From Rugalucina vietnamica (Eukaryota > Mollusca > Bivalvia > Lucinida > Lucinidae), in contig OZ024871.1 in NCBI GenBank assembly GCA_964017185.1, positions 30,790,488 through 30,854,487 on the forward strand: DNA of 64,000 bases, read 5' to 3'. A program made the position numbers and the translations under genes. Position 1 is the first letter of the stretch. Every line of letters starts with the position of its first letter. This document shows, one piece after another, positions 4,984 through 63,164 of this stretch. Below the pieces are notes generated by a model, which worked only from the letters and a program-made list of their open reading frames with translations, did not search any database and was not told the DNA's origin.

Positions 4984-7107
4984 AGGTACAAGTAGGCAAA
5001 GATCAGGAAAAGGCGCAATCAGAAAAAGATTCCCACTCCAAAAACCGAGGTGGGAAAAAACCAAACCAACAATCAGGTACTTATACCATGAAACATATCG
5101 TAAGCCGAATGAGCAGCTATTTTCCCAATAGGTGGCCACTCAGTTACCTTAACTTAACTAAAAATATGAAAACATACATAAGGCGCCAACAGCACAAAAA
5201 ATTTTCAAACACCAAGACATAAAACGAAAAGAACCACCACAGAAGTATCGACTTGGAACGATCAGTAACACAAAGTTACTGGCGGGCTTAAACCGGTTTT
5301 ACATGGCCATAACCTCACCCTCAGCTTCTGCAGTGGTTCATAACATTTAGTTAGTTATTCGGTCCTCGTGGTGAATCTCTAACTAGTCAATGAATCATCA
5401 AGAACAAACAAATAAATCATGATAAACATCCTGATGAATCAAAAACCAGGACTCACAGACTGAGTAAGCTGCCCGACGATGGAGATCCCTGGGCGCCGAA
5501 TAACCTACTAACTCCGGAGCAAAAGAAAAACACCAGTTGGACCCCGGTGGGCCAAGCAACAGACAAGAAGCTCCGGCCCCAACCAACTAAAATGAATAGC
5601 TTTATGTCGGGGCCATCATAGAGTCTGACGCCCGACCCACCGGCGTGCAATTAAAGAAGGCAGCATAGTTATCAACCATGATTGGGTTAAAAACTAAGCA
5701 TGCAGACTGTCGCATAACATTCAAGTTATAACCTATACGTCTGTAACGTGTTATGATTTTTCTGAACTGAAAAGAAAAATCATTAATTCCTTTAAGTTTC
5801 TTGAATTTGTAAACCAAGTCACCATAAAATTCAGGTTCCGAAAGGCCCTCACTTAAAAGCGTCTTTAACCCAACATTATATTTGGAAATCAATTCATAGT
5901 GTCTACGATAAAAATTAGAAAATGTTTTTCGAAGTTTATGATACCGATAGCCCTGTTGGAGAAGTTTTGCCGTTAAACATTTATTTCGAGCGTTGAAGTC
6001 TGTAACATGATTGCAGACTCTAGCAAACCTAATAAGTTGCGAAATGTATACACCATAAGAAGCACGACGAGGAACGTCACCATCCAAAAAAGGAAAATTT
6101 ACTATATCAAAATCAAAGTCATCGCGCTTGTCATAAATTTTAGAAGAAACAAATCCATTTGCAACAGAAAGATGTAGATCTAAAAAGGGGGCTTCAGTAT
6201 CTGAGATATTGGCTTTGTTCAACTGAAGTTCAGGTGGATAAATTTGATTGACCATACCTTCAAAATAAGGGTTGTCAATGTTCAAAAGGTCATCGAGGTA
6301 CCTAGATGTGGAATTAAAAGCCTCGATAACATCAGCTTGATTATCATGGTTAAGAGAATCCATGAAATCTCTTTCGTAGCAGTATAAAAATAAATCAGCT
6401 ACGAGAGGTGCGCAATTTGTACCCATCGGAATTCCAACAATTTGTCTGTATAACTTGGTTCCAAATCTAATATAAATATTATCAAGGAGATAGGATAAGG
6501 CGTCGCATACATTCTGACATGACCAAAGTGTATACCGACTTTGGTCAGAGGAAGTGAAAAAAGCCTTTCTGTCATTACATGCCAAATAAAGTGAACCATA
6601 GTTTTTTAATGCCCTTTTGAAGGTCCACTCTATCAAATCCAGAAGTTTTTCTTTAATTAGATTATGTGGTAATGTTGTATACAGAGTAGAAAAATCATAT
6701 GTAGACAAGCTTGTCGCACGGAACCCTCTACACTTCAATTTACTGAGCACCTCACCAGAATTTTTAATTGACCAAAACCAATTTTTATTTGAAGTTTCAT
6801 ACACTGTCTCACAGTATCTTATAACATGAGATTTGATAGCAGTAAGACAGGAAGTTAATAATTTAGAAAGTTCAGTGGTAGTACAAGAGCTAGAATTTGC
6901 AATAAATCTAGCTTTGTATGGTCTTTTGTGAAGCTTAGGTAACCAATACATCGTAGGAAGTTTGTCTTGGCCTTCATTGACACAAACAGAAAACTTAACA
7001 GGTAAATCGTTTAAGTGTAGACATTTTGGGAATGACATTCTAGCACTACCCCGCATTAGGAATTGAACCAGTGCAATGAGAATTGTACATGTACCTTCAT
7101 CTAACAT
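4984..7107 (-). mobile_element. Penelope-like retroelement, 5'-truncated
   Basis: This spans the reverse transcriptase frame (5602-7107) and its 3' flank to about 4984. The 3' flank recurs at 3550-3915, and shorter matches occur near 30525-30590 (plus orientation) and 38041-38095 (minus). This shows repeated deposition of truncated 3' ends. No GIY-YIG endonuclease segment was found in the open frame. Confidence 0.65.
5602..7107 (-). CDS. Reverse transcriptase of a Penelope-like element (501 aa)
   Basis: One uninterrupted frame of 501 residues. Core reverse transcriptase motifs appear in order: PTMYWLPKLHKRPYKARFI near the N-terminus, STYDFSTLYTTLPH (motif A, about residue 135), GIPMGTNCAPLVADLF (motif B, about residue 225), RYLDDLLN with the catalytic DD (about residue 270), and APFLDLHL (about residue 310). 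The FLD motif after the YxDD box is typical of the Penelope-like lineage. A stop codon directly precedes the ATG at 7107, so the N-terminal part is missing and this is a truncated but still open copy. It encodes RNA-templated DNA synthesis for its own transposition. Family placement rests on motifs only. Confidence 0.75.
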   Translation of the reverse strand: MLDEGTCTILIALVQFLMRGSARMSFPKCLHLNDLPVKFSVCVNEGQDKLPTMYWLPKLHKRPYKARFIANSSSCTTTELSKLLTSCLTAIKSHVIRYCETVYETSNKNWFWSIKNSGEVLSKLKCRGFRATSLSTYDFSTLYTTLPHNLIKEKLLDLIEWTFKRALKNYGSLYLACNDRKAFFTSSDQSRYTLWSCQNVCDALSYLLDNIYIRFGTKLYRQIVGIPMGTNCAPLVADLFLYCYERDFMDSLNHDNQADVIEAFNSTSRYLDDLLNIDNPYFEGMVNQIYPPELQLNKANISDTEAPFLDLHLSVANGFVSSKIYDKRDDFDFDIVNFPFLDGDVPRRASYGVYISQLIRFARVCNHVTDFNARNKCLTAKLLQQGYRYHKLRKTFSNFYRRHYELISKYNVGLKTLLSEGLSEPEFYGDLVYKFKKLKGINDFSFQFRKIITRYRRIGYNLNVMRQSACLVFNPIMVDNYAAFFNCTPVGRASDSMMAPT

Positions 7108-13780: not shown

Positions 13781-16700
13781 ATGAATGAAGAGCAACTTGA
13801 AGAAATCGGAGCTCTGAAAGCCATTTTTGATGATGACATTACTGGTATGTACATGATCTGAAATGAAACACTGTTAGTAACTTACACTTCTAATAATTTG
13901 GACTGTTTTTAGGGAAGACTCGGCCCAGTCTAGACATTTGTTCAATCTGATCAGTGCTTTTACCAGAAAATTACAAGCTCTTGTTACAGGATGAAACTTA
14001 CTACTGAAGATAAAATAGACATTACATTAAACTTAGACATTTGAAAAGTTAGTTCTGATGACTCAAATAATGTACTGGTATATAATATCACATAATCACA
14101 ATCATGTTTGGTTTATAATTAAGAGTACATGTAATAGAAATACATTACAAAACATTTTTTTTCTACAGATATTTCAAGGATACCGCCATGTTTCATGGTT
14201 AAAGTTCCCAGTATTGAAGAAAATTCTGGTAAGTCTGTGAGCTAAATCATGTCTTAAGTGATAATGAGCTTTGTCACAAGATAATACGTCTTTGAGATTT
14301 CCATGGCTCCAGGTCCAACACAAACCAGCCTATAAAGTCACGGAAGAGGGCTAGAATTGGCACCAAACTAAAGACACTTTATCAGCTGTGTGTCTTTATT
14401 TTCGCATATACAAAAATGTTGGTTTTCTCATGTGGCGGCTCATATCATAATCAGTCACACCATTTTAAATTCAATAATCCTTTCCAAAAAGACAGTGCAT
14501 AGAGAATGATTCACAGCATATTTGTAGACAGAGAGGTCAAGAAAATTGTGCAAACCTAAAAAAGGCTAAATCTTTGGTATAAAAGTTTTAATTTGTATAC
14601 ATTGCAGTCACAATGATAAAACACTCAGCTGGTATACTATTAAACAAGATGTCCATGTAAATGATTTTTTTATATATGTATAGACAGTGTATACTTGAAG
14701 ATAACCTTCCCAGAAGATTACCCTAATGCGTGTCCCGAGATTGAAGTGCCGTCAAGGTCAAAGGTCATCACATCATCGCAGTGTTCTAGTCTTGTATCTC
14801 ATCTTCAGGAAGTGGTAAGCATCACATGATATGAGCCGCCTCATGAGAAAATAGGATTATTGTCCATGTGATAACAAAGATGCAGATCAGCTGTGCAGTA
14901 TCAGTGCCTTTGTTTTTGCTACACGGATAGTACATACGAAATTTCAAGCTTCTAGCCGTCTTCTGTAGCTACACAGACAGGTTGTGTCAGGGACTAATTT
15001 CTTTTTTTTTTTTTTTTTTTTAGTCAGGGACTAATTTCCCTCCTGGCGCACCCCCTAGTGAAGTATTGTCAATATGGCGTGTCACCAGTAAACCATTCAG
15101 ATTCAGACCTGGTTGGAAACCCCAAAGACTAGTGTTGTGCCGATTAATCGAAATAATCGATAACTATCGGAATCTAGCTTCTATCGGTAGCTATCGATTG
15201 GAATTTTCCACTATCGATTAATCGAAATTAAATACATGAGTGTATAGTAAAAACATTTACTAACATAAAATGTTGTTACAAATTCAATTCATTTGTCACA
15301 ATAATGCCTCCTTATGTCTGCCTTCATTTAGACTTGAATGCATTGTTAATATTCACTTATAAAAGCATCACTTGACAATCTTCACTGTTTATAGTTAGGT
15401 TTTTTCTATGCTATGTGCTACAGCAATATTCTATCACATGGTCACTTTATCATTTGTAGAAAATGTGGCCTTAATATATTGGCTATGTTCAATTTAAATA
15501 CACAGAAGGGGCATGATGCAGTGACTTAATTGTCACTACATTGTCAAATACTGAGCATTTTTAATCACTTCACTGGTTAATGTAAGGGGAACATACATTT
15601 CGATTGTACAATCGATAATCAATCGACTAATGTGCTCCGATAATCGATAGTGATTTTCGCGACCGATACCCAACACTACCAAAGACCAGTTTTCTTGCGT
15701 CGTGGCTCATATAAGTGTCATGCCTATAAAAGCCTGGCATACCCATGCAATCTGCATAGGCGAAAACAAAGACGCAGATCAGCTTCACGGTGACCGCGAA
15801 GCTGATCAGCGCCTTTGTTTTAGCTACTCGGATAGTACAATTCCTCTTCTACTTAAATCTGAAATTTCAAGCTTCTAGCTCTTTTCTGTGCTTGTACAGG
15901 CCGGTTTGTGTCGGACCTGTTCGAAAACCACATTGTTGGTTTTCCCACGAGGCGGCTCATTTATCAGCAGGATAAATGCCATGCACAGCTTAACTGAGCA
16001 TGAAAGAATGTTTTACAACCAGGGTGCCTAGATAATACACAATGAAAGTGCAAACCAAACTGTGCATAGGAGCAGTTTGATCTTCACTGTTAATATTCCC
16101 AAGTGTCATTGGACACATTTTGTTCACAGATTTGAATGTACATAGATATACATTACGAAAACACGCCAATGCAATATACAGAGATTTTTAAGTTGTACAA
16201 ATTGAAAAATTTTGGTAGATTTTTTTTCATTTTTTTTCTGATTTTTGCTCAAAACATAGATTGTGGGTACACGTTAGAACCGCCTCGGCGAAATAAGAAA
16301 ATAAGAAAAATAGGTATACCCCCGCAAACCCCAGTTTTACTGTATAAAAGTGGGGTTTAAGGGAGTTTTCCTGATGTACTGAACTTAAGTGAAAACGATG
16401 CATGTGTATTCTTAAATGAAGTTCAGTCTTTTCATGAATGTTTGTCCCTGATTTCATTTCAGTCTTAAAAATAAATGAACCAAAGTGCAAGATAATGAAG
16501 GTAAAGCCAGAGAACAAAATTGGGCAACATTCATGTTACTATGAAAGTGTATCATCCTCACTTTTGTTAAGTATACCTTTCTTTATAGGCCAATGAGAAC
16601 CTGGGAATGGCAATGGTTTTTACCCTGGTTGATGCAGCACAACAGTGGCTCTCAGAAAACTTGGTGGGAAAAGATGAGAACGAGATAAATGATCTTGCAG

Positions 16701-17556
16701 ATCAGGTCAGTAATTAAACTGTTGTAAATATAAGAGCCGCCTCATTGGAAAAACAACGTGGTTTCCGAACAGGTCTGACACAAACCGGCCTGTACAAGCA
16801 CAGAAAAGAGCTAGAAGCTTGAAGTTTTGGATTTAAGTAAAAAAGGAATTGTACTGTCCGAGTAGTGAAGACAAAGGCGCTGATCAGCTTCGCGGTTATG
16901 AGATGTTTTCGTTTTTGTGTGTGCTAATAAGGACATAATTAAATTGAATGATCTCGATAATCACACTGTGCACTAAATAGATTAAATATGGTTGGTTAGT
17001 TTTAATTAACCTTATTTGGATGTTGTTATCACTGCAGGTTGATGAAGTGATAAAACCTGTGTCACCTGTCAAGCTAGTGGAACCTAAAGTCACAGGGGGA
17101 CGCTGGGATTATGTTATAGGACTTGTGGTAAACTGGTTTCAATATTCTTTAGTTGGTGTCTTAAGTTAATGATAAGCAACTGGTGTTCTTTCTACCATTT
17201 CCATTTGAGTAATCTTTGGTTCACATTCATTTAGGCCTAGTTTTGAGAATTTAAAACAGCCCTACTGTTCAGTAACCAATTATGATGAAGTCAAAAATTA
17301 CTTGTATTGTATTTGCAACCAATCACTGTAGGATTCAGATGTGGAATATGCTTCGTTTTGTCTCCAAATTCAAATGATTTGAGGCTTAAAACCTACACAG
17401 GATTACTTGTGTGAAAGTTATACTTAGCAAAATACAGAGAGTCACTACGCTGAGAGACCACTCCCGCCAATTAGATTACAACCAACCAACCAAATAACAT
17501 AGGTCTCAGAAAATTTCTATTAGTCACCATTTTGGGGGTGTACTTGATTAGTCTTG

Positions 17557-17589
<33 letters not shown>

Positions 17590-20500
17590 TATAATATCAA
17601 AAAGAGCCACCCTGTATAACCATAATGGTTTGTCTTGTCAATCGACACCCAATTGGGAAAAGGTTGTGCACAAATGTGCCTTCATCATTGCCAATGACAT
17701 TTCCCACCAGTGCCTTTATAACTTTAAAGGTTAAAACTCATTTACAATTTTATTGATACAGGGTAAACCAGGAAAACATGTCCGTGCCATATATACCCCC
17801 TTAAACCCCACTTTTATATAGCAAAACTGGGGTATGCAGGGGTATACCTATTTTTCTTATTTTTGCTCCAAAAAATAAATTATGGGTACTCGTTAGACGA
17901 GGCGGTTCTAACGTGTATCCACAATCTATGTTTTGAGCAAAAATAAGAAAAATACCAAAATTTTTCAGCTGAAAATTTCTTAATTTTTACAGCTAAAAAA
18001 ATCTCTGTATGTTGCATGGGCATGTTTTCATAATGGGTCGTGGGTGCACATTAAAGGTTAAAACTCATTTACAATTTTATTGATACAGGGTAAACCATCA
18101 GCAGGAAAGTCAACATTCTTCAATGCCTGTACCAGCCTAGATGGAGCTAAAGTTGGCGCCCATCCATTCACTACTATAGAACCTAATGTCAGCAAGGCAT
18201 ATTACACTATACACTGTCCCTGTGCACAACTCACACACAGGTGTGATGCTGGTAAAAAATATTTTAAATGAGCTCTGATTTCAGTACAGCCTTGAATGAC
18301 ACCACAACGAAAACTTGCCCACACAATATACAGAGATTTTTTTCAGCTGTAAAAATTGAAAATTCCACCAGAAAAATTTTGATATTTTTCTTATTTTTGC
18401 TCAAAATATAGATTGTGGGTACACGTTAGAACCGCCTCGCTCGCTGAGGCGGTTCTAACGAGTTCCCACAATATATGTTTTGGAGCAAGAATAAGAAAAA
18501 TAGGTAAATAGGTATACCCCTGCAAACCCCTGTGTTACTATATAAAAGTATGGTTTAAGGGGGTATATATTGCACAGACATGTTATTGTGATGCTTTCAA
18601 GAATATTTGAAGAGTGATGTAGAGCTTGTGTACCTATATGAGCCGCCTCGTGGGAAAACCAACAATGTGGTTTCCGAACAGGTCCAACACAAACCGGCCT
18701 GTACAAGCACAGAAAAGAGCTAGAAGCTTGAAATTTTGGAGCTAAGTAGAGGAGGAATTGTACTATCCGTGTAGCGAAAACAAAGGCGCTGATCAGCTTC
18801 GCAGTTACTGCGAAGCTGATCTGCGCCTTTGTTTTCGCCTATGCAGATTGTTGGTTTTCCCATGGGGCGGCTCAAATGTTAGGCTAGAAGCCTCAGGTAT
18901 ATCAGAGGTTGTGTGTTTGATACCGGTCTAATCCAGTCTTTTGGATGAGACTTAAAACTGAGATTCCATCTCCATATGACTTAAGCTGTTGAGTGGGAAG
19001 GAAAATAGTGGTAATAGTTATCAGCAAATTTAGATTTTCAATCAAAGAAAGAATCGAAAGAAATGTGAGCATAGCTTGGTAATGGACCAGAGTACAACAG
19101 AAGACAGGTTGTCTGATGACAATGCTCACATTGAATGGTTCCATTCATGATTTGTTTGACATTCACTCATTGGCAGCCTATGGACACAACTACGCTGGAG
19201 AGCGGTACTTGCCCGTATTGATTAAAGACGTTGCCGGGCTGGTTCCTGGGGCATGGGAGGGGAAGGGGCGAGGGAACCGGTTCCTGAATGACCTATTGGA
19301 CGCAGATGTTCTGATGCACATTGTTGACGTATCGGGTAGAACTAATGAAAAAGGGGAGGAAACTACAGACTATGACCCGGCAGCTGATATACAGTGGTTA
19401 CAACAAGAGTTACAGTTAGTTTGTCTTTCCTTGTTGGTTTGGTTTGATTGTATTATTTTTACATGTGAATTCATTACGAAAACACTCCCATGCAATATAC
19501 AGTAAATTTTTTGGTTGTAAAAGTGAAAATTTTAAGTAGAAAAAATTTGATATTTTTCTTATTTTTGCTCAAAACATAGATTGTGGGTACATGTTAGAGT
19601 ACCCACAATCTATGTTTTGGAGCAAAAATAAGAAAAATATGTATACCCCTGCAAACCCCATTTTCACTATATAAAAGTGGGGTTTAAGGGGGTATACATT
19701 TCACGGACATGTTTTCCTGATGTGAAATGCGAAACATATTTGACTGAAAACTGACCAGCAGTTGCATTGCCTCAGAGTTTAGTTTGAGAACAGTATTTGA
19801 GATGATTTTATTATAGAAATAGTTCTGTGTATATATATTTTGGTGAGTATAGTGTGTATTTCATTTCATTAAAATGATAGCCCATTGGCATGCTGGAACT
19901 GTAGACCCTCAAGTTGGTGTTTTCTTTTTCCATTCAACATTTTATAATGATGGGTCATTACGAAAACTCATCCATGCAGGCATTTTTTGCTTTGAAAATG
20001 ATTTTTTTTTTAATATTTTGAGTATGTTTGCAAAACATTGATAGTCAGTACACGTTAGAACTGCCTCACTGTGGCAGTTCTGACGAGTACCCACACTATG
20101 TTTTGGATGATAAATAAGAAAAATATACCCCTTCATAAAAATATATCCCTTCATATATTATACTTGATAAAACTGGGGTTTAAGAGAGTATTGAATACAT
20201 GAACATGTTTTGGTGATTACTATTTCTTTTTTTTGCAGCCAATGGATTTACCAGAATGTGTATGCTAGGTGGGACAATATAGTAAAAAGACCCAGTAAAT
20301 TGGTTGACATGTTTACTGGTTACCATGCCAACAGGTCCACCATACACCAGGCACTAAGGAATGCTGGGATAGGAGAAAGGTATGTTGGACTCTTGATCTG
20401 GAAGTTAGGGACTGAACGCACTGGCTTCAGGTTGTATCCTTAGGCAAGACACATTGAGTCTCCATTGGTTAAGATGCAGGAAGCTTTGCTGAAAAATTAT

Positions 20501-22844
20501 TGATGATAATACATAAACCATAAACCCCCCCCCCCCCCCAAAAAAAAAAATGAAATAAAAAAGGACAGATTTTGTCAGGACATTGCTCATTTTATGTTTC
20601 AGGGAGCTTGGCAACATCTCAACATGGGATGACAGCGTACTACACAATATTGTTGACAGCTTCTTACAGTTACGTTTTCCTATGCTCCTAGTGCTCAATA
20701 AATCGGATTTCGCTGAGGCCGCTACACATATACAAAGAATTGGAGAGCTTAACCCAGACATTGTCAGTATAACAGTCAGTGCTAGGTCAGAGTGTATACT
20801 ACAGAGGTGTGCCAGGGATGGGCTGGTCAAGTATCAACATGGGGCAGATAAGTTCCAGTGGACTGACTCTAAAGCAGGGGAGAAAACTATTTGCTCAGAG
20901 GTGGAGAGTATAAATAATGATGTGCTCAAAGTGTAAGTTTGTAACTTTATTGTGTTACCATATGAGCCACCTCATGGGAAAACCAACAAACTGCATAGGC
21001 GAAAACAAAGACGCAGATCAGCTTCGCGGTAACCGAGAAGCTGATCAGCGCCTTTGTTTTCGCTACTCGGATAGTACAATTCCTCTTCTACTTAAATCCG
21101 AAATTTCAAGCTTCTAGCTCTTTTCTGTGCTTGTACAGGCCGGTTTGTGTCGGACCTGTTCTGAAACCACATTGTTGGTTTTTCCCCACGAGACGGCTCA
21201 TATTTTTATTGGTGAGAATAATTCATAAATGAGCCACTTCATGAGAAAACCAACAATGCATTTACAGAACAGGTTCGACACAAACTGAGCTGTACAAGCA
21301 CATATGATGGCTAGATGCTGGAAATTTTGGACTTAGAAAGTAGTGGAATTGTACTATCCGTGTAGCGAAAACAAAGGCCCTGATTAGCTTCACAGTAACT
21401 GCGAAGCTGATCTGCGCCTTTGTTTTAACATATACAGATATATAAATGTGGCTAAAATTGAAACAGCACTGTGAATTCTAATGCAGTTATATTAAAACTT
21501 AGCCGTAGAATTAAACTAAAAAGTGAACTTATTCTGTTATTCTAGGGACTTTGAATATACACTAAACACCTTGACTACCAGGTTAGTTTTGGTGATATGC
21601 CAACAAGGAAAGAAAATGTTAGCTGAGTATGTAATAATTAATTAAAGTCAATGACAATACATTTTATCTAGAGTGATGCATTCAATAACAAGGCCTATAT
21701 TCAAAGTTAATATTGTGTGTGACACCTTTTTGCAATTCCTTACCTTAAAATTGAATTTTTGTTCACATTTCATCACAGATATGGCTCAACAAATGTTCAC
21801 AAGGCTCTAAACCAGGCCGTCTCTCTACACAGTCCGGTCTATGCCTACCCTGTGAGATGTTTGGATACCCTCAGGTCTGTAGGTAGAGGGCAGCTTCAGC
21901 AACATAAAGAGACAGAGATATTACGAGATTGTATCTCACTGAAACCTGGCTCCACGGTGGAGGATCTGTACAGTGTAATGTCTCACTATCCCTCACAACT
22001 GTTAACTGGGGACTTTGTCAGAGCTGAGGTAGATCTTTTCATATTTAACGCGTGTTAGATCTAAAACTCATACTTTTAGTTAGAAAATGTTCAGTAGAAT
22101 TCATTTTCGATTTAATATTTTGGCAAATTGTTTGCCTCGCAAATTCAGATTTTGCTAATAGTGACTTATAAGCTTTATTGATTGTATAAGCAATTGTTTG
22201 CAAATTCTAGAACTCCCTTGTAATTCAGCTGTTGAAAATTTGCGAATTAAGCGTCACTCAAAAATTTAAGAACATCAGGATTTACAGTAGTTAACATCAA
22301 TGTAAAACTATTGAAAAGAATGTTAAAGATGTATTAAAGAAAAAAACAAACTTAATAAATGGCATTTATGTCCCAGTCAACAATTTTTCAGTCATTATGG
22401 GAAAGAGCCAGTGCTTTTTAATAGTTTCTTTGTCTTGCTTCATGGTCTTGCACAAAGACACAACACAGTGTCTGTAGGTTCAAACCTCCCACTCCAAGTC
22501 TAGAACCCTACCACTAAGCCAAAGCACTAGTCCTATTCCTTAATGAATTGTTACAAAATGTCCACACCCCTGATATGGGCAGTTTGCCTTTTATGAGTCA
22601 GGATGAACATTAGTCACCAGCATGATGGGTATGTACCAGTGCTAGCCTTATGATCCAGGGATTATGCGCCAGGGATTAAATCTATGACTTACAGCTCCTA
22701 AATTCTTATAAAATTTGCTGTTATGGTTGATTCTATTTTCAGACCAAAGATGAGCAAGGCAAGAGAAGACCACTGAAAAAAGATGAAATTATCTCCCCTG
22801 CTAACCAACTTATTCACATTATGACAACCAAGAAGTCTTCCTGA
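13781..22844 (+). CDS. RWD domain fused to YGR210-type Obg/YchF GTPase (573 aa)
   Basis: Twelve coding exons with GT/AG borders and matching phases: 13781-13844, 14169-14228, 14684-14814, 16589-16705, 17038-17127, 18089-18251, 19177-19414, 20239-20379, 20603-20932, 21546-21581, 21779-22028, 22743-22844 (TGA). They sum to 573 codons. The start is the ATG in an exon opening at 13759 (MNEEQLEEIGALKAIFDDD). Residues about 1-125 form an RWD domain with the signature YPNACPEIEVPS. The GTPase begins near 148: P-loop GKPSAGKST (155-163), PFTTIEPN (180-187), DVAGLVPGA (G3, 226-234), NKSD (G4, 367-370), VSARSE (G5, 393-398). The C-terminus (RDCISLKPGSTVEDLYSVM) looks TGS-like. YGR210/YchF-class GTPases act at ribosomes in translation-related roles. 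RWD domains mediate binding, for example in GCN2 and RWDD1. The exact function is unknown, and the fusion is the notable point. Confidence 0.88.
14300..14443 (-). repeat. Family A foldback element, partial (intron 2)
   Basis: A degraded minus-orientation copy. GGTCCAACACAAACCAGCCT, then GTCTTTATTTTCGCATATAC and the terminal GTTGGTTTTCTCATGTGGCG. The central hairpin is mostly lost. Confidence 0.5.
14832..15710 (+). repeat. Family A foldback element carrying two later insertions
   Basis: It starts TGAGCCGCCTCATGAG and ends CGTCGTGGCTCA, so both ends of one copy are present. The right part is split by a truncated LINE tail (about 15003-15112, preceded by a poly-T run) and by an hAT-like element (15130-15678). 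Lies in intron 3 of the RWD-GTPase gene. Confidence 0.7.
15130..15678. mobile_element. hAT-like non-autonomous element with 8-bp target duplication
   Basis: Begins TAGTGTTGTGCCGATTAATC and ends ACCCAACACTA. It is flanked by an exact 8-bp duplication CCAAAGAC at 15122-15129 and 15679-15686. Subterminal clusters of ATCGAT/AATCG motifs lie at both ends. No transposase frame. An 8-bp duplication fits hAT. Confidence 0.8.
15731..15960 (+). repeat. Family A foldback element (intron 3)
   Basis: A nearly complete copy with the central palindrome GATCAGCTTC...GAAGCTGATC (about 15777-15807) and the right terminus CCACGAGGCGGCTCA. The left terminal repeat is decayed. Confidence 0.75.
16152..16375 (+). 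repeat. Family B foldback element (intron 3)
   Basis: Starts ATTACGAAAACACGCC and ends near GGGAGTTTTCCTGAT. The hairpin centre is partly deleted: the left half ACGTTAGAACCGCCTCG remains, and the right half resumes at AATAAGAAAAATAGGTATAC. See 44835-45110 for the reference copy. Confidence 0.7.
16733..16900 (-). repeat. Family A foldback element, truncated (intron 4)
   Basis: Starts 28 bases after the exon 4 donor with GAGCCGCCTCATTGG. It continues through GACACAAACCGGCCTGTAC and GGCGCTGATCAGCTTCGCGG, then stops in the central palindrome. Confidence 0.7.
17551..17595. repeat. Poly-A followed by AT microsatellite
   Basis: About 18 A residues, then an AT dinucleotide run, inside intron 5 of the RWD-GTPase gene. 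Confidence 0.85.
17724..18097. repeat. 47-bp direct duplication bracketing a family B element at the exon 6 acceptor
   Basis: Identical 47-bp copies lie at 17724-17770 and 18051-18097. The right copy contains the real branch/acceptor region and the first 9 coding bases of exon 6 (TTGATACAG|GGTAAACCA). The left copy is therefore a second, decoy acceptor. Family B sequence lies between them. Use of the left acceptor would add a short frame, ending within about 20 codons. Confidence 0.85.
17771..18035 (-). repeat. Family B foldback element (intron 5)
   Basis: Minus orientation. Starts GGAAAACATGTCCGTG and ends CATGTTTTCATAAT. The stem GACGAGGCGGTTCTAACG is visible near 17898. Bounded by the 47-bp duplication described separately. 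Confidence 0.75.
18303..18592 (+). repeat. Family B foldback element (intron 6)
   Basis: Begins ACGAAAACTTGCCCAC about 55 bases after the exon 6 donor and ends GACATGTTATTGTGAT. The central stem ACGTTAGAACCGCCTCGC / GCTGAGGCGGTTCTAACG is intact. Confidence 0.75.
18639..18874 (-). repeat. Family A foldback element, complete (intron 6)
   Basis: A full minus-orientation copy from TGAGCCGCCTCGTGGG to CCATGGGGCGGCTCA. The central palindrome GATCAGCTTCGCAGTTACTG is followed by its complement. Confidence 0.85.
18885..18975. repeat. SINE fragment (TTTTGGATGAGAC type)
   Basis: Contains GTGTTTGATACCGG (B-box-like) and TTTGGATGAGACTTAAAACTG, motifs shared with a fragment at 41936-42040. Confidence 0.4.
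19473..19721 (+). repeat. Family B foldback element (intron 7)
   Basis: ATTACGAAAACACTCCCATG to GGACATGTTTTCCTGAT. The stem around ACATAGATTGTGGGTACATG is intact, but the apical AACCGCCTCG loop is deleted. Confidence 0.75.
19957..20218 (+). repeat. Family B foldback element (intron 7, second copy)
   Basis: ATTACGAAAACTCATCCATG to GAACATGTTTTGGTGAT, about 20 bases before exon 8. More diverged than the other copies. The stem TTAGAACTGCCTCAC is still visible. Confidence 0.7.
20438..20560 (+). repeat. V-type SINE 3' fragment and homopolymers
   Basis: AGGCAAGACACATTGAGTCTC matches the conserved centre of the SINE at 32797-32990. It is followed by runs of about 15 C and 10 A at 20526-20550. Confidence 0.5.
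20963..21201 (+). repeat. Family A foldback element, reference copy (intron 9)
   Basis: The design is clear here. The left terminus is TGAGCCACCTCATGGG, then AACCAACAAACTGCATAGGC. The central palindrome is GATCAGCTTCGCGGTAACCG plus its complement, flanked by ACAAAGACGCA / GCGCCTTTGTTTTCGC. An asymmetric middle follows (CTACTCGGATAGTACAATTC, GAAATTTCAAGCTTCTAGCT, GGCCGGTTTGTGTCGGACCT), and the right terminus is TTGTTGG...ACGAGACGGCTCA. The termini are about 25-bp inverted repeats. No open frame encodes a transposase, so the family is non-autonomous. Confidence 0.85.
21230..21438 (-). repeat. Family A foldback element (intron 9, second copy)
   Basis: Starts only 29 bases after the previous copy, in opposite orientation. 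Left end TGAGCCACTTCATGAG. The right end is truncated after GCGCCTTTGTTTTAACATAT. Confidence 0.75.
22129..22260. repeat. Dispersed repeat (GCCTCGCAAATTC type)
   Basis: GTTTGCCTCGCAAATTC...GACTTATAAGCTTTATTGA resembles segments near 46545-46600 and 57220-57290 (TTGTTGCCTCACGAATTC). This is a decayed repeat in intron 11. Confidence 0.4.
22368..22523 (-). repeat. V-type SINE (intron 11)
   Basis: Read on the minus strand: GGCTTAGTGGTAGGGTT (A box), GGTTTGAACC (B box), GTGTCTTTGTGCAAGAC, and a 3' part TGACTGAAAAATTGTTGACT. Related to copies at 32797, 55895 and 59436. Confidence 0.6.
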
Positions 22845-47300: not shown

Positions 47301-50300
47301 GTCTTTAGTATATAATTTAAGTAGTTACAAATTGTTAAGCACTTTGTACCACTCAATTTACATGTAAAGTAGTAATTCCATCCCATTCAGCCTCACTAAT
47401 TATATAGACAGATGTAAAGGGAAGTAACTGATGCTTGACCTTTGCCACCTTGCTCATTTGATTGTACATAATACTTGAGATGTAATTTGTTTTGTCCTTC
47501 AGATGTTTATGTACATGCATGTTGAAATCCTTGAATCCATAATCTTACCAACAAACTGTAATAAATAAAGACCAAGGCTAAGTAGATTTTGTCCTTGAGA
47601 AAGGTTTTGCTAAAATTGCACATTTTGCGAAAATTGCACATGATCATAAGAATTTATGGAAAGTTTGGTAATGATTAATGTCAGGCTGTTGAAATGTATG
47701 GATTTTCGTCAAAGAAAACATTCCCTCCCAATATCTGCTGTAGTCTAATTTGTCAACGAAGTAGCTCAGGGTTTCCATTGCATTTTGAAATTGAGCCCCC
47801 TCTCTCCCCACCCCCTTACTATGGAACCCAATAATAGCAGCATGCAGAGAACCGGACACAGGGGTGAAAAACAGGCCTCTACAAAGATTAAATGGGAATT
47901 CTGCTTGAATGATTGAACGGGCCTTTTGAATCGTCCACCTTTAATTAAATTACTTTCGCTCTTTACCTATGAAATCTTTCTGAAGTTTCTGTTTGACAAT
48001 GTCTGAAAACATGATTACTGCAGTTCACCTTTCCACATCCTGCAAAAATCAAACATCTACATTCCTAATGAAAGTTTCAGACACTCATTATTTATAGATA
48101 TTCTTTGGCATACAATGTAGACAAGATTTGAGCTGCCACGTTGGAAAACCAACAATCTGCATATGCGAAAACAAAGACACAGATCAGCTTCGCGGTGGTC
48201 ATCGCCTTTGTTTTGGTTACTCAGATAGTACAGTTCCTCTTCTACTTGAATCCGAAATTTCAATCTTGTAGCTCTTTTCTGTGATTGTACAGGTCGGTTT
48301 TTGTCGGACCTGTTTGGGAACCACATTGTTGGTTTTTCCATGAGGTGGCTCATTTGTATGTTTGAACAAAAATTGTCTGGATACCAGGTTTGCTTTGCTG
48401 AAAAATATGTGGAATTTTAGTGCTATGTAATGGTGTAACATCATTTATTTTTGCACACCCAAAATACCATAGAGACTCACGCCAGGAGTTTGCAAAAGTG
48501 GGCGGGGTTTTCCCTATACTTCATGTTGCTAGTAACTGATAAGCCGTAAGTCCTATAGGTAAAAATATTTGTTGCCTGACTGAAAAAAAAAATCAAAGAA
48601 GGTGGCCTTCTCTTCCAGTCAGAGATTGTATACATATCAAGAGCAGTCTAAACTTGACCTACTCTGTTTTTGGTTTTCAAAGGCTTGTCTTTGTTAACTT
48701 GAGAACAGAATAATTTGCAAAGTCACAGATTTAACAGACTGTTCCAGGATATGGGCTTTTAACACAAGGTTTTATTCTATTGAGACTTTTTTCATATGAG
48801 TCCGGTCTTGAGAAAGTCGGTCTTCGCAGTTTCTGATCAGGTCTGACACAAACTGGCCTGTGCTGCTACAGAAGATGGCTAGAAGCTTGAAATTTTGGAT
48901 TTAAGAAGAGGAGAAATTTCACTATCTGTTTAGCGAAAACAAGGGCGCTGATCAGCTATGCAGTTACGGGGGCTCGTATTATGCTGTCTCGTGTTGCAGA
49001 CTATAATTTCAAATGCACATTCCCAGTAGTTTGCATGACAATAAGCCATTTATTCTGCTAATGCTATCATAATGGCTTTGTTCTGTACAGAATTATGCAG
49101 CTCGGCATTGTCATTAACATGCAATGAGTCAGCTAATCACATCGTTAAAGCCTGTCTGTTGATGATGTGAAAAACAAAAGGGGCAGATCATCTGATCCAT
49201 GTTTTGGTTTTGCAGCATAGATGGTATATTTCCTCCCCTTCCTTCATAAGAAGGGATCATATGCTGAATTTTTGCCAGGCTTCCAAAATAAGGTCTTCCA
49301 TTCTCATGAGACTTGTCACATCAGCAGTGCTCAACAAGGCTGCTTATACATGTGTGTATATATAATCAGAAATGATTCCACTTGTTGATATTTTGCAGGT
49401 ATTTAAGTACTTATTTTACTTGGGACAAGCAATCCTCGCATGACCGTAGATCTATGTTTACTAAACAAAACATTGGACAAAACTTCTTGAGAAGACAGAG
49501 AAGTATCTGTAGTGTGTGGTCATTTCGGGTAAACTGTGTCTGTGCCATTTTTCGCTTACAGAGTTAAAGAGAGTTTCTATTTGTATGAAGTCTAATCATG
49601 TGTACAATACTATATTTCAGGGCCGAGTTATTTCGCTGTGTTCTGACAACAGTCTACACCTCTGGGAGATCAACAACAAAGATGGCTCCTCCAGACTGGA
49701 GGTTGTCAAAAGTTTCTCTATTGAAAACAAGTAGGAAGATTCATCATATTATTTTGAACACTATAAATAAGGTTTGAACACTGGGAAAGAAGGGCTTGAA
49801 CACTTAAAAGGAGACTTGAATGCCAAAGAAAAGAAAGAACCCTCAGAATTTTGACACACTTGTGACGAGATTTTCAAGAAAAAGTAACTGTTCTGGTCTG
49901 CTTGATATTTGATTGTTGTGACAAGTATATATAGTATATTCAGAAGTCTTGTAAAGTTCAGAATTAGTATTTTCATGTACATCATGTCTGAAAAGTCGTC
50001 TTTAGCTTTCTGATATTGTGTAGGGGGATAACTGACTAACGCATCACCATAATTTCTGACAGTATATTTGAAGATATACATGTTCATGTACTTCCACAAA
50101 TGAAACAAAGGCTATACTGCCTGAAATCATTGACATCATTAGGTTTCAAACTGTAAGTGCATTAGAATTACATTTGACCATTTTTTCTTGCAGTAAGATG
50201 AAAACAGTGTCGGCATGTTGTCTCACGACCAACCACGAGCAGTTGTTGCTTGGAACCGAAGGTGGGAACATCCTGATCCTGGACGTCAAAGAGTTCTCTC

Positions 50301-53300
50301 TCATGGAACAGATCATCTACCAGGATGTCGTCATGCAGAAGTAAGTGAGCCGCATCGTGAGAAAATCGGATTTTTGCCTATGCGAAAACAATGGCACAGA
50401 TCAGCTGTGCAGTAACTGCACAGCTGATCAGCGCCTTTGTTTTCGCTACACGGATACCCCGAAGACTGGTTTTCTCGCGTCGCGGCTCAAGTCATAACTG
50501 ACAGGGTTATTCTACACCTCCCACCCCCTCCCCTCCAAAAAAGAAAAAAAGCAACAACAAACTACTATTTTTCATCGAAGACTTGTCAAATAAGTCCAAC
50601 CCTCAGAGTGATCTTTTTCATCAAAACATTTTCTCTTCACTATTCATAAACCAGGAAAGTCAGGGATTTTCCTACCTTTTCAAAACAGGGACCCGGGACC
50701 AATGATTTTGGGAAAAATAACAAGTATATCAGTCAAATTGGGAAAATGGATACGAAACAGAACAGGGGATAATATGCATATTTGGTGTTAATTTGAGGAT
50801 ATTTCTCCGAAAAAAAAAATAGTTTGAGGGTATGATCTACGTATCCACAACAAATGTACAAGGATTTATTTATTATTTTGGGATTTTTTACCTGAAAATT
50901 GGGAAATTTTACACATTTTTTCAATTGGGAAAGGGGCCCATAATGGGCCCCAAAATCAGCCCAGAAAAATCCCTGAAAGTTCAGAGCAGTTCTGAACATC
51001 TTGTGCAGTCTGTTAAAGTTGATGACAGTTTTTATATCGGAGCAGCTCTGTATGTGCAATATCAGGTCTGACAACTTTTTGAACAAAAAGTTTTGCTTCA
51101 GAAGATCATGGTGTAAATGAAATGAGCCGTGACGCGAGAAAACCGGTCTTCGGGGTCTCCGACCAGTCCTTACACAAACTGACCAGTACAGTCACTGAAG
51201 CAGGCTAGAAGCCTGAAATTTCAGATATAAGTAGAGGAGGAATTGTACTATCCTTGTAGCGAAAACAAAGGCGCTGATCAGCTTCGCGGTTACCGCGAAG
51301 CTGATCTGCGCCTTTGTTTTCGCCTAGGCAAAAATACGGTTTTCTCACGATGCGGCTCAAATGGTACTACCTGTACTGTTGTCCGAGTAATTAGTATACC
51401 ATTCATTACATGCAAAAACTTGCTGTTGTCTGAGTATATCGACAGTCGTATCATGTCTTGGATGACAGCATAATCGCTAGCATCATATGTATGGCCGTTG
51501 ACCACAACGGATAACAACAGGGTATTGCTGCTTTGTATGTGATGGTATACAAATGACTTGGTCAACAGCACAGGTAGCATCATTTGAATCACCCCAGTGC
51601 AAATAGCAGAGTCACTAATGTTTAAAATGCATATGCATGAATATGAATATTCTTGTGTTGCAGCGTACCAGATGACTTCAAAGTTAACCCTGGAGCAGTG
51701 GAGTCTATTGCAGTGCATGCTAAAAATCCAGACAAAGTGAGTAATTGTAGCACATGATTTGATAAAGTTTTTGACTTTCAGAACACAACTTTAATTGGGC
51801 TATTCAGGGTTGGAAACAGGTTAGCTAGGTAGACATGCATGTTCCACACTAGTTTGTTTGCCAACAATATGGGTTTTGAACAGGTCCAACACAAACTGAG
51901 CTGTACAAGTACAGAAGCAGGCTAGAGGCTTGAAATTCCAGTAGAAGAGGAATTGTACAGTCGGAGCGAAAACAAAGGCGTGATCAGCTGTGCAATTAGC
52001 GATCTGCGTCTTTATTCTTGCATATCATGCAGATTGTTGGTTTTCTGGTCCGGCGGCCTTAATTTAAGGGCTTCTGCAAGTGGAATAAAGGATCCACTTT
52101 TACATTTGGTAAAGATTGAAGAGTGGTTGAAATGTCGTTTTTGCTTGGTTATTAAAAGTTTTCAGAAGAATTGGTTTTAAAATGTGCTTCAATAAGTTCT
52201 TTTTAATGAAGAAGACACTGAATCATTAAACTATTAAATCATTAAACTAAGATTCTTTCTTTTGCAGTTTCTGATAGGTTACAACAAAGGGCTGATAGTA
52301 TTATGGGATATAAAGGCCAGTAACTCAGACCAGACTTACAACTCTACACAGGTAAAAATTCAAAACAACATTGTCTGTGATATTTTTCATCATAAAAACT
52401 TGTACCAATATAAGAATCATACATGAATTAACTTGTAGGAACATTTGCAGTGGCTCAATGAATGTTTGAACGGGTTAATTTTTTTTTCTGAGAGCCATTG
52501 CAAATGTTAACTTATGAAATAAACATGTGATCCTTACATTTGCATTTTCTCAATTTCATTGAAATACTTGTTAAAACATTAACAATGTCAAAAACTCACT
52601 GAGTACCTGCATTATATCTAGGGCATCTGCCATTTTGTAACAATGACAAGGTTGTGTAAACTAGAATCAAAATGATCCATGGCAAGTTGTACCCAGACAA
52701 TAGTTGCTTCGTACAGCCATAAATTGTGTTTTATCTTCATTGGTTGTTCTCTGACAGTCACATTGGTTGTCTTGGGATAACTGGTGCCTAATGTTTCTCT
52801 ATTACAGCAACTGGAGTCCCTGTGTTGGCACAGGAATGGTGAAGAGTTTATGAGTGCACATGCTGACGGTAGCTATATTGTCTGGAGTGCTACTGACTCG
52901 TCAGCCCCCAAAGATCAGGCCCTCACACCCTATGGTTAGTGACTTTCTTTGTACATATAACAAGGAATGCTTAGAGCCGTGACTTGAGAAAACAGGTCTT
53001 CGAGGTCGCTGGCCCGGTCTGATACAAACCAGTCTGTACAGCCACTGAAGAAGGCTAGAAGCTTGAAATTTTGGATTTCAGAAGAGGGAATGTACTATCT
53101 GTGTAGCAGAATCAAAGGCACTGCTAACCGCAGAGCTGATCTGAACCGGCAAAAATCTGGTCTTTTTGATGTCTCAACAAACATTCATGTTGACCTCACC
53201 GTTTTGAATTAATTTATTGTAATCTGCCTTCCAACATCCTGAGTTAATCACGATAACACACTTTAGTAAAATTATTCCTTAATGATACAGAGGAGCAATT

Positions 53301-56300
53301 TCATTCACTAGGTGCAAAGATGTTTTTTTGTGAGGATTTGTTGAGTTTGGTTTGGGAGTTGCAAACTTGCCATGTTATGTACTGCTTATAGTTCACTTGA
53401 TGAAATTTAAAGTGTCTTTTCTGTAGAATACTCATGTCCAGTCTGGTTAGATTTCTATTAGATTGGAATGCTTTTTATTTTGTCTATTTTTGTTACAATG
53501 GAAACAAAAATTAAACCAGATCCTTTAAGAGCAGTGAACATGTTACTTTTTGTACCCTTACAGGTCCTTTTCCATGCAAGGCCATCAGCAAGATAGACTG
53601 GAAAACATCAAAAGAGTAAGTTGTCTAAATACAGTAGAAGATATAAAACAATTTACCAACATTGAAAAAAGAATCAGTAGTCTCCCTTAAACATAAAAGG
53701 CTTAGGATAGTGCCTGTATCATTACGTACATGTAAATCAATTGCATCATAAAACATCCAGACCTTGATGAGCTTATATGAGTAAAGCATGATTTACTTTG
53801 ATTTATCTGTTCTAAAAATTCAGCAAATAGCGTTACAAGGTCATGGCCACAATATGCCGAGGCACATTTGATTAAATACTTGCAATAATTCTGGTATGCA
53901 CCTTAAGTACTTAGTTTCATATCTTTTCAAGGCCTTTTTATGTAAACATTCAGATAAAATGAATTGTGCTTATTATTCTCAAAATACTATATTGGTGCAT
54001 TTAGTAAGAAACAAAATGACATTCTATGCAGAAGACATGATATGCACACATTTATCACCAAATGTTGATATGAGCCTTCAGGGAGATAATTGGTCTGCGC
54101 AAGGTTTTCTGCAAAGTCACTGCTGAAGATTTTGTGTACCCAGACTACATTTTGTAAGGCTATTTAGATAAAAATGCTGTAAGGCCACACCAAATAATGT
54201 GTAAGGTGATCAGCCACTCCTGCGCTTAAAAATCACCTCTGGTATGCCAGCTAGGTAGTTTTTGTAGGAGTTCTCCTATTTTCGTCCCACGTATGATTTG
54301 CCTGTCTCATATGATTTGAAATAATCTTGAAAGGTCGTAAGAATGAATAAAAAAAATAAAAAGCATCTTTAATTTCAGAGACCCATTCATAATATTCTCT
54401 GGTGGTATGCCGAGAGCCAGCTATGGTGACAAGCACACAGTTAGCGTGATGCAGGGATCCAACCATGCGGTGTTTGATTTCACGTCCAAAGTGATAGATT
54501 TCGTAACAATAACCCGGGCTAATGAGGATGACAGTGATGAGGGAAAATTAGGTGAGAATTTTATGAAGCTGGACATTTTCAATCTCTTTATTAGAACTGA
54601 GCACAATAGGTAAATTGGTTGCATTTCTGTTAAAATTTGATTTGAAATGAACCATCAAACGGACAAATCAGTTTTAAGCAAATTGACTATATTTACGCAC
54701 AAATTACAAAAATTCACCATTTTCCAGGTACCTTATTTCCAAGATGGTTCAACATGTGAACCCAGTTACATATGTTTATTGAAATTATAAAGTAGTTGAA
54801 GTTTGTCATCTTTAATAATAGTTACCACCGTTTTCATATGATTTTATGACAAACCCCTGAACCCCCTGCGAACCCCTGGTGAAATAATGTCATTTGGCGT
54901 GTTACCAGTAAACTGTTCAGATTCAGATTCAGACAATATTTTTCTTTATCTGTTTTGCTTATCCATAGGAATTAAAAACTTCGTTGCAATGATTTCAGTA
55001 TCTATACGGGTGGGTAAGGTAGAAGGTATGTTAGTTTGGATAGTATGAATGATATAAATGTGGACAATTGTTTCCAATTAATTCTATGTTGTGATTCTAT
55101 GTAGATTACATAAAGATACTCTAGGTTGATAATTCCAATCTAAAATCTGCCTTAGATTTTGATTCCCAGACTGCAAATACTACTGAATAACATTGCAAGA
55201 ATTCACGAATATGTGTAAAAATTAACAATCAGCTAGTCCTTGAAAATCTGAAAACTTGTCCTTGAAAAGTCCTTGAATTTTACTTGTCCTTGCCTGTATG
55301 AACCCTGGTCCATAAACATTTCAGTTGACTCAAACTCACTTGAATGATAATAATGAGCAAGACAATTTGTCACAAATGGGTCAAAGGATAGAAGTTGTTG
55401 AATTTTTCATGATTTTTTTTTGTTACTGGTATTGAGAGACACCTATGCATAATGTCTTAATCGCTTTTTTCCACATTCCAGAATATGATGAGCCCCACTC
55501 CCTCATAGTTCTGGTGGAGGAAGAAATTGTTGTCATTGACCTTGACTCTGATAAATGGCCATCGTTTCACCTGCCATACATGAACAGTCTTCACTCATCC
55601 GCCATCACATGTTCACAACATATCAGTAACGTCCCGGAACAGCTGTGGTCTAAGATTGTAGATGTTGGACAGGCGCAGTTTGCTAATCTATCAAAGAGGG
55701 TAAGAAATGCATCTCTGAGACAATAAATTGAAAAAAAGCAACACCAAAACCTAGTCTGCCTTCTTGACTTCATTTCAAGTGTCCTAGCTTGATTTCAAAC
55801 CAAGGAAACCTTTGATTGAAAAGCCTTTAGTGGTACATCTGAACCATGGTTTCATCCTACCGACTGGCATATCAGTGATTGTGATTAGGTACCCATAAGC
55901 TTAGCCTGATACGTCTGTAAATCAAGGGGTCTTGTTTAAACCCTGCTGGGGTTCTGGTTGTGTCTTTGAGCAAGACACATGGCATTAACTTCTGTAGTTT
56001 TGGTTAATACTCATGAAGCAGTGGGACACTGACTGGATTTAAGTTCAGTATGAAACAATGAAAATCAAGTGTGAAGTTTGTCCTTAAAATGGTAGTCTCA
56101 TTCATTTAATCTTGATCTTTTGTTGTAAATTCTCTCTATTTGTTTGCAGGCGTGGCCCATCAATGGTGGTAAACCTATGAATGAAGAACCAACTTCTAAA
56201 GATATTCTTCTGACAGGGTGAGTAGCAGTATTCCATTGAATTGGATACAAATAGACAAACACAAAAAATTATCTATCATGTTTAGGGACCTAAGATTGAT

Positions 56301-59300
56301 CATCATACATGTCATACTTGCAAATTCCTTTATGGAAAATTTCTTTATCTTCTGATTCCAGGGGAGAAACTCCTTTACTATTTCTTTTGTTAGATTGGCT
56401 ATGTTTACCATTTTCAGTAAACGTGTTATCAAGTACAATGTAATCAAAGTAACTGATGGCCAAAACCTGATCTTGCAGTTTGAAAAAAAAAAAAAATTGT
56501 TTGTGCTATTTTCAAAACTAAACATTACCTGCTGTAAGAAAAAGAGGATGTTATAGTGCTGTTTTGGAATCCCTGGTACATGTACAAGTTATCAATGTCA
56601 AAAGTGTTAAAGGTTGACAGATACACTCAAGATCCTTATGTAAAATTCATTGTTTTCCAGTCACGAGGATGGTACAGTACGATTCTGGAATGCCTCAGGC
56701 ACCTGCTTACAGTTCATGTACAAGTTGTCGACGTCGACCGTGTTTAAGGTGGACGTACACACGCCAGATCCTAATGGGGAAATGGAAGAGGAATGGCCAC
56801 CATTTAGAAAGGTATAGTTAACCCATATTTGACGAATGGATTTTACCATCGTTATCATTTGGGTGAGTCCACTTTCATTTTTAGGGGCATCAGGAGTGAT
56901 TTTTAAATTTTATTCAATTTTTCTATGAAAATTCTCTAAGCAAACAGTATAGCCCCAGGTGGGACGCCGCGTTCTGCGGCGTCACATCTGGGGCTATTCT
57001 GTTTGCCTATGTCCCACAAAAGGGACGCCAGGCTTAAATGAGTTAAGCAAGAACTACTACTGTGTTTGTGTTTTGTGGCTGGGATCACTGACCCAGCTTG
57101 ATATGACACAAAATATAATTGGAAGTCGTAACATCCAGTTGAAAAGCCAGGAGAAAGTGTTTTGGTATCACAAGACTAAAATCAAAAATATTTGTGAGAA
57201 CATTGATTTTTGCTAATATACGCATTTTTGTTGCCTCACGAATTCAAAGTCCTCGCTTATAAAGACTTACTATAAACTTTATAGACTGAAGCAGAAACTG
57301 CTCGGGATATCAAGAATTCTCTAATAATTCGGAAAAAGAAAATTCGCAAAATAATAGTTTCATTAAAATTTCTGAACTTATATTGAACACTTATTTTTTT
57401 TTTTCAGTGAATTAGTAGGCCTAAAACTGAAAATATATGTTGTTCAAAATTTGGATTTTTAAAAATCTGAAACTATTTTTTCTATGGGGGTGGGGGAATC
57501 AATTCAAGAGTTATATGTTTATAAACAAAGTCCTTAAAGTTATAATTTTTCATAACAGGAAGCTAAAAACCAGAGATACTGATTTATTTCTATTTTTCAG
57601 GTTGGAACCTTTGACCCCTACAGTGATGACCCCCGACTGGGTATCCAGAAGATCGCCCTGTGTCCCCTGAGTGAGACCCTGGTCGTCGCGGGAACGGCAG
57701 GTCAGGTTATGGTACTACAGATGGAGCGAGAAGAAAGAGAACAGGACCTTAAGCCAATAACCGTCAATATCGTCGGCGACAGAGATAATTTTGTCTGGAA
57801 GGGTCACTCGGCTCTCGAGTCGCACCAGGGTGATGTGAAATATCCGGCAGGCTTCCAGCCAACCTGTATCATGCAGCTGTATCCTCCAGCATCCTGCACG
57901 GCTCTGGCCTTCCACTCAGAATGGCAATTGTAAGTTTGAATCAGGTCATGAAGAAAAAAACACGGTCTTTGGGATTTGTCAATAGGTCCGACAAAAACCG
58001 GCACATACTGTCACTTAGTCAGGCTAGAAGTTGAAATTTCATATTTTAGAAAGAGCAATTGTACTAGGCATGAATTGAAAACGATGCAAACCAGCTTCGC
58101 TGAGGCATCATTTTAGCTGCATATACCATCTTCTCTGTAAGCACTAAAGAATCCATATTTGTTGGCTTTGAATCTATTATTTTCTAGACTTTTATTATTA
58201 TCATTGACATTGTTTTCTTGCAGAGTTGGTGCAGGCACAGCCCACGGGTTTGGTCTGATAGACTATGTACAGAAGATAGAAGTTACCAGCAGATGTACCC
58301 TTAATCCAGAAGGTACAGACAAATACTCATCAGTGCAAAAAATATGCTGCATCCATGACTATTGTTTATGTTCTCTATAGCAATTAGCTTAGACTACATC
58401 TTTTAAAAATGATCTTGACATTATGGAACAGACCCCTTTTTTCATGTTGTAAATATTGTTGGACTTTGCTCTTTAATCCTTGGCTGATGATGCTGAAACA
58501 CTGCTTAAATTTTATAACTCGTCTTTTAACAGATTTAACAGGCACATCCGATACCCCAATGTCACGTAGGAAGTCCCTGAAGAAGTCACTGCGTGAGTCG
58601 TTCCGTCGCCTGAGGAGACGACGGTCAGAGAGACGGGCCAAGGCCAAGGAAGAGGCAGTTGCCAAGGAGAAAGAAAAGGATAAGAAAATGTAAGAAAGAT
58701 AACTCAGTGTAAATCTGTAGACATTCTGTAATTCGGAAACTCTTGTCTGAATTTTATTTTGAGGTCAGCACTTTGTTTTTGCTACCCCGATAGTATGATT
58801 TCTTGACTTTCTAAATCCGAAATTTCCAGCCTCTAGCCATCTTTTGTGCTTGTACAGCCCGGTTTGTGTTGGACCTGTTCAAAAACCACATTGTTTTTCT
58901 CATGAAGTGGCTCATATCTGTTTTGAAATATCAAATCCTGGTTTTCTGTGCTTAAAAATCAGTTTGGATTGAACGCAGTGTTGAAACCAGAACCTGAAAG
59001 GGGCCCGCTAGAAGTAAATGGATGGGAAAGAACATCTTTTATTTTGATTATTACAATAGCATTATACAATTGTTTCATTACAGAGAAGAGAGCCCAAGCC
59101 CCGCCCCTGAAGCTGGACCATCCACCTCAGCTGGGGAGACCACGGTGGTTCACACAGCAGAACCTAAACCTGTGGAAAGAAGTGTAGAATTCAGAAATAC
59201 TGATGATGCCATGGCATCTATGGTTAGATGTTTGTACTTCGCAGATACTTTTATTGTAAATGGTAAGTTTTGTCATAGATTTCAGTCACTTGTATTTAAT

Positions 59301-63156: not shown

Positions 63157-63164
63157 GTAAGCTA

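Follow-up and report, generated by a model that had tools for sequence, protein, structure and literature searches.

A predicted one-chain fusion of an RWDD1-type RWD domain and a YGR210-subfamily GTPase in the bivalve Rugalucina vietnamica

The window, i.e., the whole 64,000-nucleotide stretch of R. vietnamica DNA analyzed here, contains a 12-exon gene predicted to encode an RWD domain of the RWDD1/Gir2 type, a linker of ~40 residues, a GTPase of the YGR210 subfamily (Obg family), and a TGS-like tail. We favor the view that this protein would be a single-chain translation GTPase docked on GCN1, and our confidence in that reading stands at about the midpoint between doubt and belief. The RWD-YGR210 architecture is known already, though it is unstudied as far as the literature searched, partly in excerpt, extends. 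New here are the RWDD1 origin indicated by shared introns, the absence of a DFRP domain, and a proposed GCN1 mechanism that can be tested.

Gene model and domain content

Rebuilt from the window sequence, the gene is a single open frame of 573 residues that starts with an ATG at 13781, ends with a TGA whose last base is 22844, and is divided by 11 introns, all GT-AG, which bears out the 12 in-phase exons and 573 residues of the initial annotation. Its features are as follows.

13781..13844, forward strand: exon 1, start codon and beginning of the RWD domain, residues 1 to 21 (gene model, RWD match)
14169..14228, forward strand: exon 2, RWD domain; the preceding intron 1 is in phase 1 at the RWDD1-equivalent place (gene model)
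14684..14814, forward strand: exon 3, RWD core including YPNACP; intron 2 is in phase 1 (gene model)
16589..16705, forward strand: exon 4, end of the RWD domain (ANENLGMAMVFTLV) and start of the linker; intron 3 is in phase 0 (gene model)
17020..17022, forward strand: ATG within intron 4, in frame and 18 bases 5' of exon 5, a possible GTPase-only start
17038..17127, forward strand: exon 5, linker and strand 1 of the G domain (WDYVIGLV), with no in-frame Met codon
18089..18251, forward strand: exon 6, G1 P-loop GKPSAGKST and PFTTIE (gene model, alignment)
19177..19414, forward strand: exon 7, G3 DVAGLVPGA (gene model, alignment)
20239..20379, forward strand: exon 8, G3-to-G4 region (gene model)
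20603..20932, forward strand: exon 9, G4 NKSD and the bulk of the YGR210-like_G4 domain (gene model, Pfam)
21546..21581, forward strand: exon 10, short, within the YGR210-like_G4 domain (gene model, Pfam)
21779..22028, forward strand: exon 11, last part of the G4 domain, then the beginning of the divergent TGS-like C-terminus (LKPGSTVEDL)
22743..22844, forward strand: exon 12, C-terminus and stop (gene model)

An additional 5' exon upstream of exon 1 is possible because an acceptor-like TTACAG ends at 13758 and the frame stays open from there to the ATG.

The initial annotation had proposed a domain-database search with the 573-residue model. Pfam returned RWD at residues 3 to 106 (E = 7.2e-23, 81.4 bits versus a cut-off of 22.8), MMR_HSR1 at 151 to 271 (E = 8.4e-14, 52.1 bits versus 21.9), and YGR210-like_G4 (PF08438) at 365 to 483 (E = 4.8e-17, 62.8 bits versus 24.7). 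With all three above their curated cut-offs, the proposed order of an RWD domain followed by a YGR210-class GTPase in one model holds. The RWD domain is shorter than the 125 residues first assigned to it: residues from about 107 to 148 form the ~40-residue linker, and the G domain starts at about residue 149. The junctions of exons 3 to 6 had been thought to join the two halves; it is exons 4 and 5 that carry the link, since the G domain already opens in exon 5.

Two adjacent genes, one RWD-only and one for a YGR210 GTPase, could have been misread as one, with the GTPase starting in intron 4 or 5. The ATG in intron 4 would suit such a pair, as would the 19 open codons ahead of exon 5, the stop that follows three codons after read-through of exon 4 into intron 4, and the poly(A)-type signals of intron 5 (one AATAAA and one ATTAAA) and intron 4 (three ATTAAA). 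However, this ATG lies in poor context (TTTGGATGT), the 332-base intron 4 has no AATAAA, and exon 5 encodes the linker together with the first G-domain strand while lacking a Met codon of its own. What speaks most strongly for a fusion is external: a supplement legend of PMC12711092 lists MMR_HSR1, FSH1, RWD, and YGR210-like_G4 for a single uncharacterized Chlamydomonas protein, Cre12.g538200, which the same paper calls “conserved in algae and invertebrates.” This listing favors a genuine fusion, but the architecture can no longer be claimed as new; the earlier statement that no characterized protein has this architecture stands as to function, whereas the architecture itself is published. We regard two separate genes as very improbable and the cis fusion, with a predicted single mRNA, as supported.

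Many copies of a fold-back repeat, with cores GCGCTGATCAGCTTCGC and GCGCAGATCAGCTTCGC beside AAAACAAAGGCGC, lie between 15796 and 51308 of the window, some of them inside introns 3, 4, 6, and 9 of the gene. Downstream, exons on the forward strand at 50000 to 63200 resemble those of a lethal-giant-larvae-type (LLGL) gene. Upstream, a match to Rfam SECIS_1 (5560 to 5627, reverse strand; 37.4 bits versus a gathering threshold of 35) overlaps the end of a 501-residue open reading frame (5602 to 7107, reverse strand) that by eye is reverse-transcriptase-like. Among 363 candidates for the stretch from 5540 to 5900, 40 scored copies are 98 to 100% identical, which points to a young repeat family whose 3' end bears a SECIS-like element. 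The reverse-transcriptase-like frame stops at TAA, and the stop preceding the frame is also TAA; four copies that were fetched match over merely 522 to 1,275 bases at the 3' end, and an in-frame UGA was not found there. No paper in the literature searched names SECIS and a retrotransposon together in its title.

An archaeal-type GTPase half

For the GTPase half, the best NCBIfam family by far is NF007171, “YchF-related putative GTPase” (E = 8.7e-82, residues 150 to 557). Its score of 275.1 bits falls under the curated cut-off of 387, which we do not count against membership in the YGR210 subfamily because the NCBIfam library was built for prokaryotic proteins. The best PDB sequence is 1wxq, of archaeal YGR210 type (E = 3.1e-45; 37% identity across the aligned stretch). 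The archaeal YGR210-type GTPases (1wxq, NF007171) resemble the window protein in the G domain and G4 region and differ from it in having no RWD domain; the C-terminal tail of the window protein is divergent. To our knowledge, yeast YGR210C is likewise without an RWD domain.

A single scan of bacterial and archaeal genomes yielded at least 566 relatives, and the best 80 were kept. An open frame that matches the GTPase half was obtained from each of the 80. By title, 79 are archaeal, counting L112, titled Methanomassiliicoccaceae bacterium, as archaeal; the other, L092, is labeled Falkowbacteria. Two short open reading frames were left out, and the alignment thus holds 78 rows of more than 340 residues. 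The relatives align from about window residue 148 onward, mean occupancy over residues 1 to 140 being 0.00 to 0.03 in 20-residue blocks of the 78 rows. The RWD domain is absent from these 78 aligned prokaryotic relatives, drawn from the best 80 of at least 566, and the near-zero occupancy identifies it as a putative addition onto an archaeal-type protein. One scan of viral contigs for relatives of the GTPase found two stretches that fit the pattern, neither of which was confirmed.

The window protein carries the residue present in at least 90% of the 78 rows at G155, G160, K161, S162, T163, T183, DVAG (226 to 229), N367, K368, D370, and A395. Its motif set comprises G1 GKPSAGKST, G2 T183 (in PFTTIE), G3 DVAG, G4 NKSD, and G5 SA. 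Within G1, S158 takes the place of Asn in the relatives, and at other positions the protein disagrees with 90% or more of the rows, e.g., at R240 (Leu) and M524 (His). The retained G1, T183, G3, and G4 residues lead us to expect GTP binding. When compared with a profile built from the C-terminal ends of the relatives, the C-terminal piece scored 13.1 bits and the full protein 8.7 bits, the best of 200 shuffles reaching 4.7 bits. This likeness is weak, and a Pfam TGS match was not found; we label the divergent C-terminus TGS-like.

YchF/OLA1 also belongs to the Obg family and has a related G domain (TIGR00092, E = 1.6e-19). As an identity for the window protein it was rejected: the YchF C-terminal domain (YchF-GTPase_C, PF06071) was unmatched in the protein at E ≤ 1, and the G4 motif of the window protein is NKSD, the standard GTP form. 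In this genome PF06071 was found on contig C16 only. A DRG identity was rejected as well, the MMR_HSR1_Xtn insert (PF16897) being unmatched in the protein at E ≤ 1; elsewhere in the genome PF16897 occurs on contig C13 and on contig C3 at 42.36 Mb, a place apart from the window gene. Searches of the 1.09-Gb genome found this gene as the sole YGR210-type locus. They revealed no second or free-standing YGR210 gene: all 11 matches with E no greater than 0.00489 fall on the gene's own exons, four weaker ones score at most 24 bits, and a further search gave a single match.

The RWD half and introns shared with RWDD1

The best PDB match of the RWD half is RWDD1 (2ebm, E = 9.2e-16), followed by GCN2 (E = 1.7e-8 and 1.1e-7) and RNF25 (E = 1.5e-5). 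Identity amounts to 42% of 106 positions with human RWDD1, 33% of 123 with the RWDD1 encoded in the same genome, and 37% of 101 with human GCN2; the corresponding alignment scores are 175, 135, and 120. It is the scores, not the identities, that favor RWDD1, and by this measure the predicted domain is nearest the RWDD1/DFRP2 type (Gir2 in yeast). Human GCN2 Asp-37, a GCN1 contact according to an excerpt of PMC10931611, aligns with D19 of the window protein, a match that says little because human RWDD1 has Ser there.

DFRP_C (PF16543) went unmatched, both with the full protein (E ≤ 1) and with the linker (E ≤ 10). The initial annotation had suggested a “DFRP-like” docking module. The nearness of the RWD half to RWDD1/DFRP2 agrees with it, whereas the absence of DFRP_C does not; the predicted protein carries DFRP2's GCN1-docking half without its DRG-binding half. 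The similarity of KVTGGRWDY to a motif of RWDD1 is short and was dismissed as chance.

RWDD1 also exists in this genome as a gene of its own, on contig C6, with a DFRP_C match (E = 9.6e-7) further along, in a fragment joined by eye. Three possible acceptors for exon 2 and two for exon 3 give six open models of this gene, and the first acceptor of each was used. Intron phases are 1, 1, and 0 in all six, identical to those of the window gene. Introns 1 and 3 agree with RWDD1 in aligned place and phase in every model, while intron 2 is at the same place in the three models built on the first exon-3 acceptor and displaced by four residues in the remaining three. The distance from EEQ to YP is 60 residues with both first acceptors and 56 with either replaced by the second, compared with 56 in human RWDD1 and 53 in the window protein. 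Intron 2 is therefore the uncertain member of the three, as the choice of exon-3 acceptor shifts it and the EEQ-to-YP length gives no decision. For three sites placed at random in 318 positions, agreement of at least two has a probability of ~1.8e-4 and of all three ~2e-7, rough figures that ignore the choice of alignment.

As a control, 18 RWD-family matches in the genome were inspected at these sites. All eight whose profile ranges span the intron-3 site are unbroken (L018 to L023, L025, and L031, of which L018 to L020 are near-identical neighbors). Four ranges span the intron-1 site, and apart from L029, which is RWDD1 itself, the three others are unbroken (L021, L030, and L034). Eight span the intron-2 site; setting aside L029 and also L018, which contains stop codons there, six of six are unbroken (L021, L023, L024, L028, L030, and L032, the last resembling E2 more than RWD by eye). 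The shared introns are therefore not general to RWD genes. Shared with RWDD1 and uncommon among RWD genes, they make an RWDD1-like gene with introns the most likely ancestor of the RWD domain; the first exons of such a gene were probably joined to an archaeal-type YGR210 gene. In the same genome, three RWD exons that are almost identical to one another and look RNF14-like are spread across 150 kb (G000:C2:51663099-51813864) and are probably a recent local amplification.

Proposed action at ribosomes and occurrence

In excerpts of a review (PMC10931611), GCN2, IMPACT, DFRP2/RWDD1 (Gir2), and RNF14 are reported as GCN1 binders, the C-terminal RWD-binding domain of GCN1 takes RWD domains, and Gcn1 has been seen with Gir2-Rbg2 on collided ribosomes. 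DFRP2 works in trans, combining an RWD domain with a DFRP domain by which it binds the GTPase DRG2 (excerpts of PMC8629797, a review, and PMC3510508). The RWDD1/DFRP2 (Gir2)-DRG2 (Rbg2) pair and the window protein have in common an RWDD1-type RWD domain, the shared introns, and the combination of RWD with an Obg-family GTPase. They differ in that the former are two chains connected via the DFRP domain, whereas the latter is one chain in which DFRP is unmatched and the GTPase is YGR210 rather than DRG.

The retained RWD domain, the unmatched DFRP, and the GTPase carried on the same chain lead us to think of GCN1 docking and action at stalled or collided ribosomes. The RWD domain would bind GCN1 and thereby bring the GTPase to such ribosomes, where it may affect translation. 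The protein would then be a single-chain counterpart of Rbg2-Gir2, with a peptide bond in place of the non-covalent DFRP-DRG tether. Besides RWDD1, the genome has DRG-type matches above cut-off on C13 and C3, and matches to HEAT_GCN1/HEAT_EF3_N cluster in 11 kb of C13; these HEAT matches are weak (one of eight exceeds the cut-off), and a further HEAT match from a separate GCN1-type search of the genome is under the cut-off. We read the C13 cluster as a putative GCN1. With these components present, the fused protein seems to supplement the trans system rather than to replace it. On C13, the DRG-type GTPase and the HEAT cluster fall within ~150 kb on the same strand (G000:C13:46082703-46229533), possibly by chance.

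A real fusion need not involve GCN1: the RWD domain might regulate the GTPase internally or act as a scaffold for an unrelated partner. The RWD of RWDD3 binds UBC9, so not every RWD acts via GCN1 (PMC10931611, excerpt), and the spacing of only ~40 residues between the RWD and G domains would permit contact within the chain. However, the closest RWD is that of RWDD1, itself among the GCN1 binders listed above, and docking in the same excerpted review placed all RWD domains tried, WDR59 excepted, at a near-identical GCN1 site; we consider the role apart from GCN1 rather doubtful, if still a serious contender. The fused protein could instead chiefly compete with GCN2 for GCN1 and damp the starvation response, the GTPase being secondary. 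Forced expression of IMPACT or Gir2 does inhibit GCN2 activation (PMC10931611, excerpt), but the retention of key G-motif residues suggests an activity in use, and we hold such competition improbable as the main function. A GTPase brought to ribosomes through GCN1 remains our preferred reading.

Among the literature searched, in the texts as excerpted, PMC12711092 alone names RWD and YGR210 domains in one protein. Compared by description, with unreliable domain order, Cre12.g538200 is like the window protein in combining RWD, MMR_HSR1, and YGR210-like_G4 in one predicted protein and unlike it in having an FSH1 serine hydrolase domain, which is unmatched in the window protein. According to excerpts of the same paper, the lf5-2 deletion covers CDKL5 and two uncharacterized upstream genes, one for a predicted ribosome-binding GTPase; the lf5-2 strain, without Cre12.g538200, is alive and swims erratically and slowly, and a CDKL5 transgene does not restore its beat frequency, which the authors cannot explain. 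The taxonomic range of RWD-YGR210 proteins is taken from a single sentence of PMC12711092, and the eukaryotic genome searched here was the window's own. A table in PMC4263083 gives a Ygr210 member for yeast and none for Arabidopsis, rice, C. merolae, human, or E. coli.

In the literature searched, as far as its excerpts go, no place of action is assigned to YGR210 GTPases. An RWDD1-type RWD domain in cis points to GCN1 and collided ribosomes for these little-studied enzymes, in a form that is directly testable. We suggest tentatively, with clearly less than even confidence, that cells of algae and invertebrates may answer ribosome stalling or collision through an arm that has been overlooked, the single-chain, GCN1-docked GTPase, which is not listed for human and would be built from RWDD1 exons and an archaeal-type GTPase. 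If so, the set of RWD proteins with GCN1 as a common partner (GCN2, IMPACT, RWDD1, and RNF14) would gain a GTPase, one that would escape studies of human cells and whose yeast version would be without the RWD domain.
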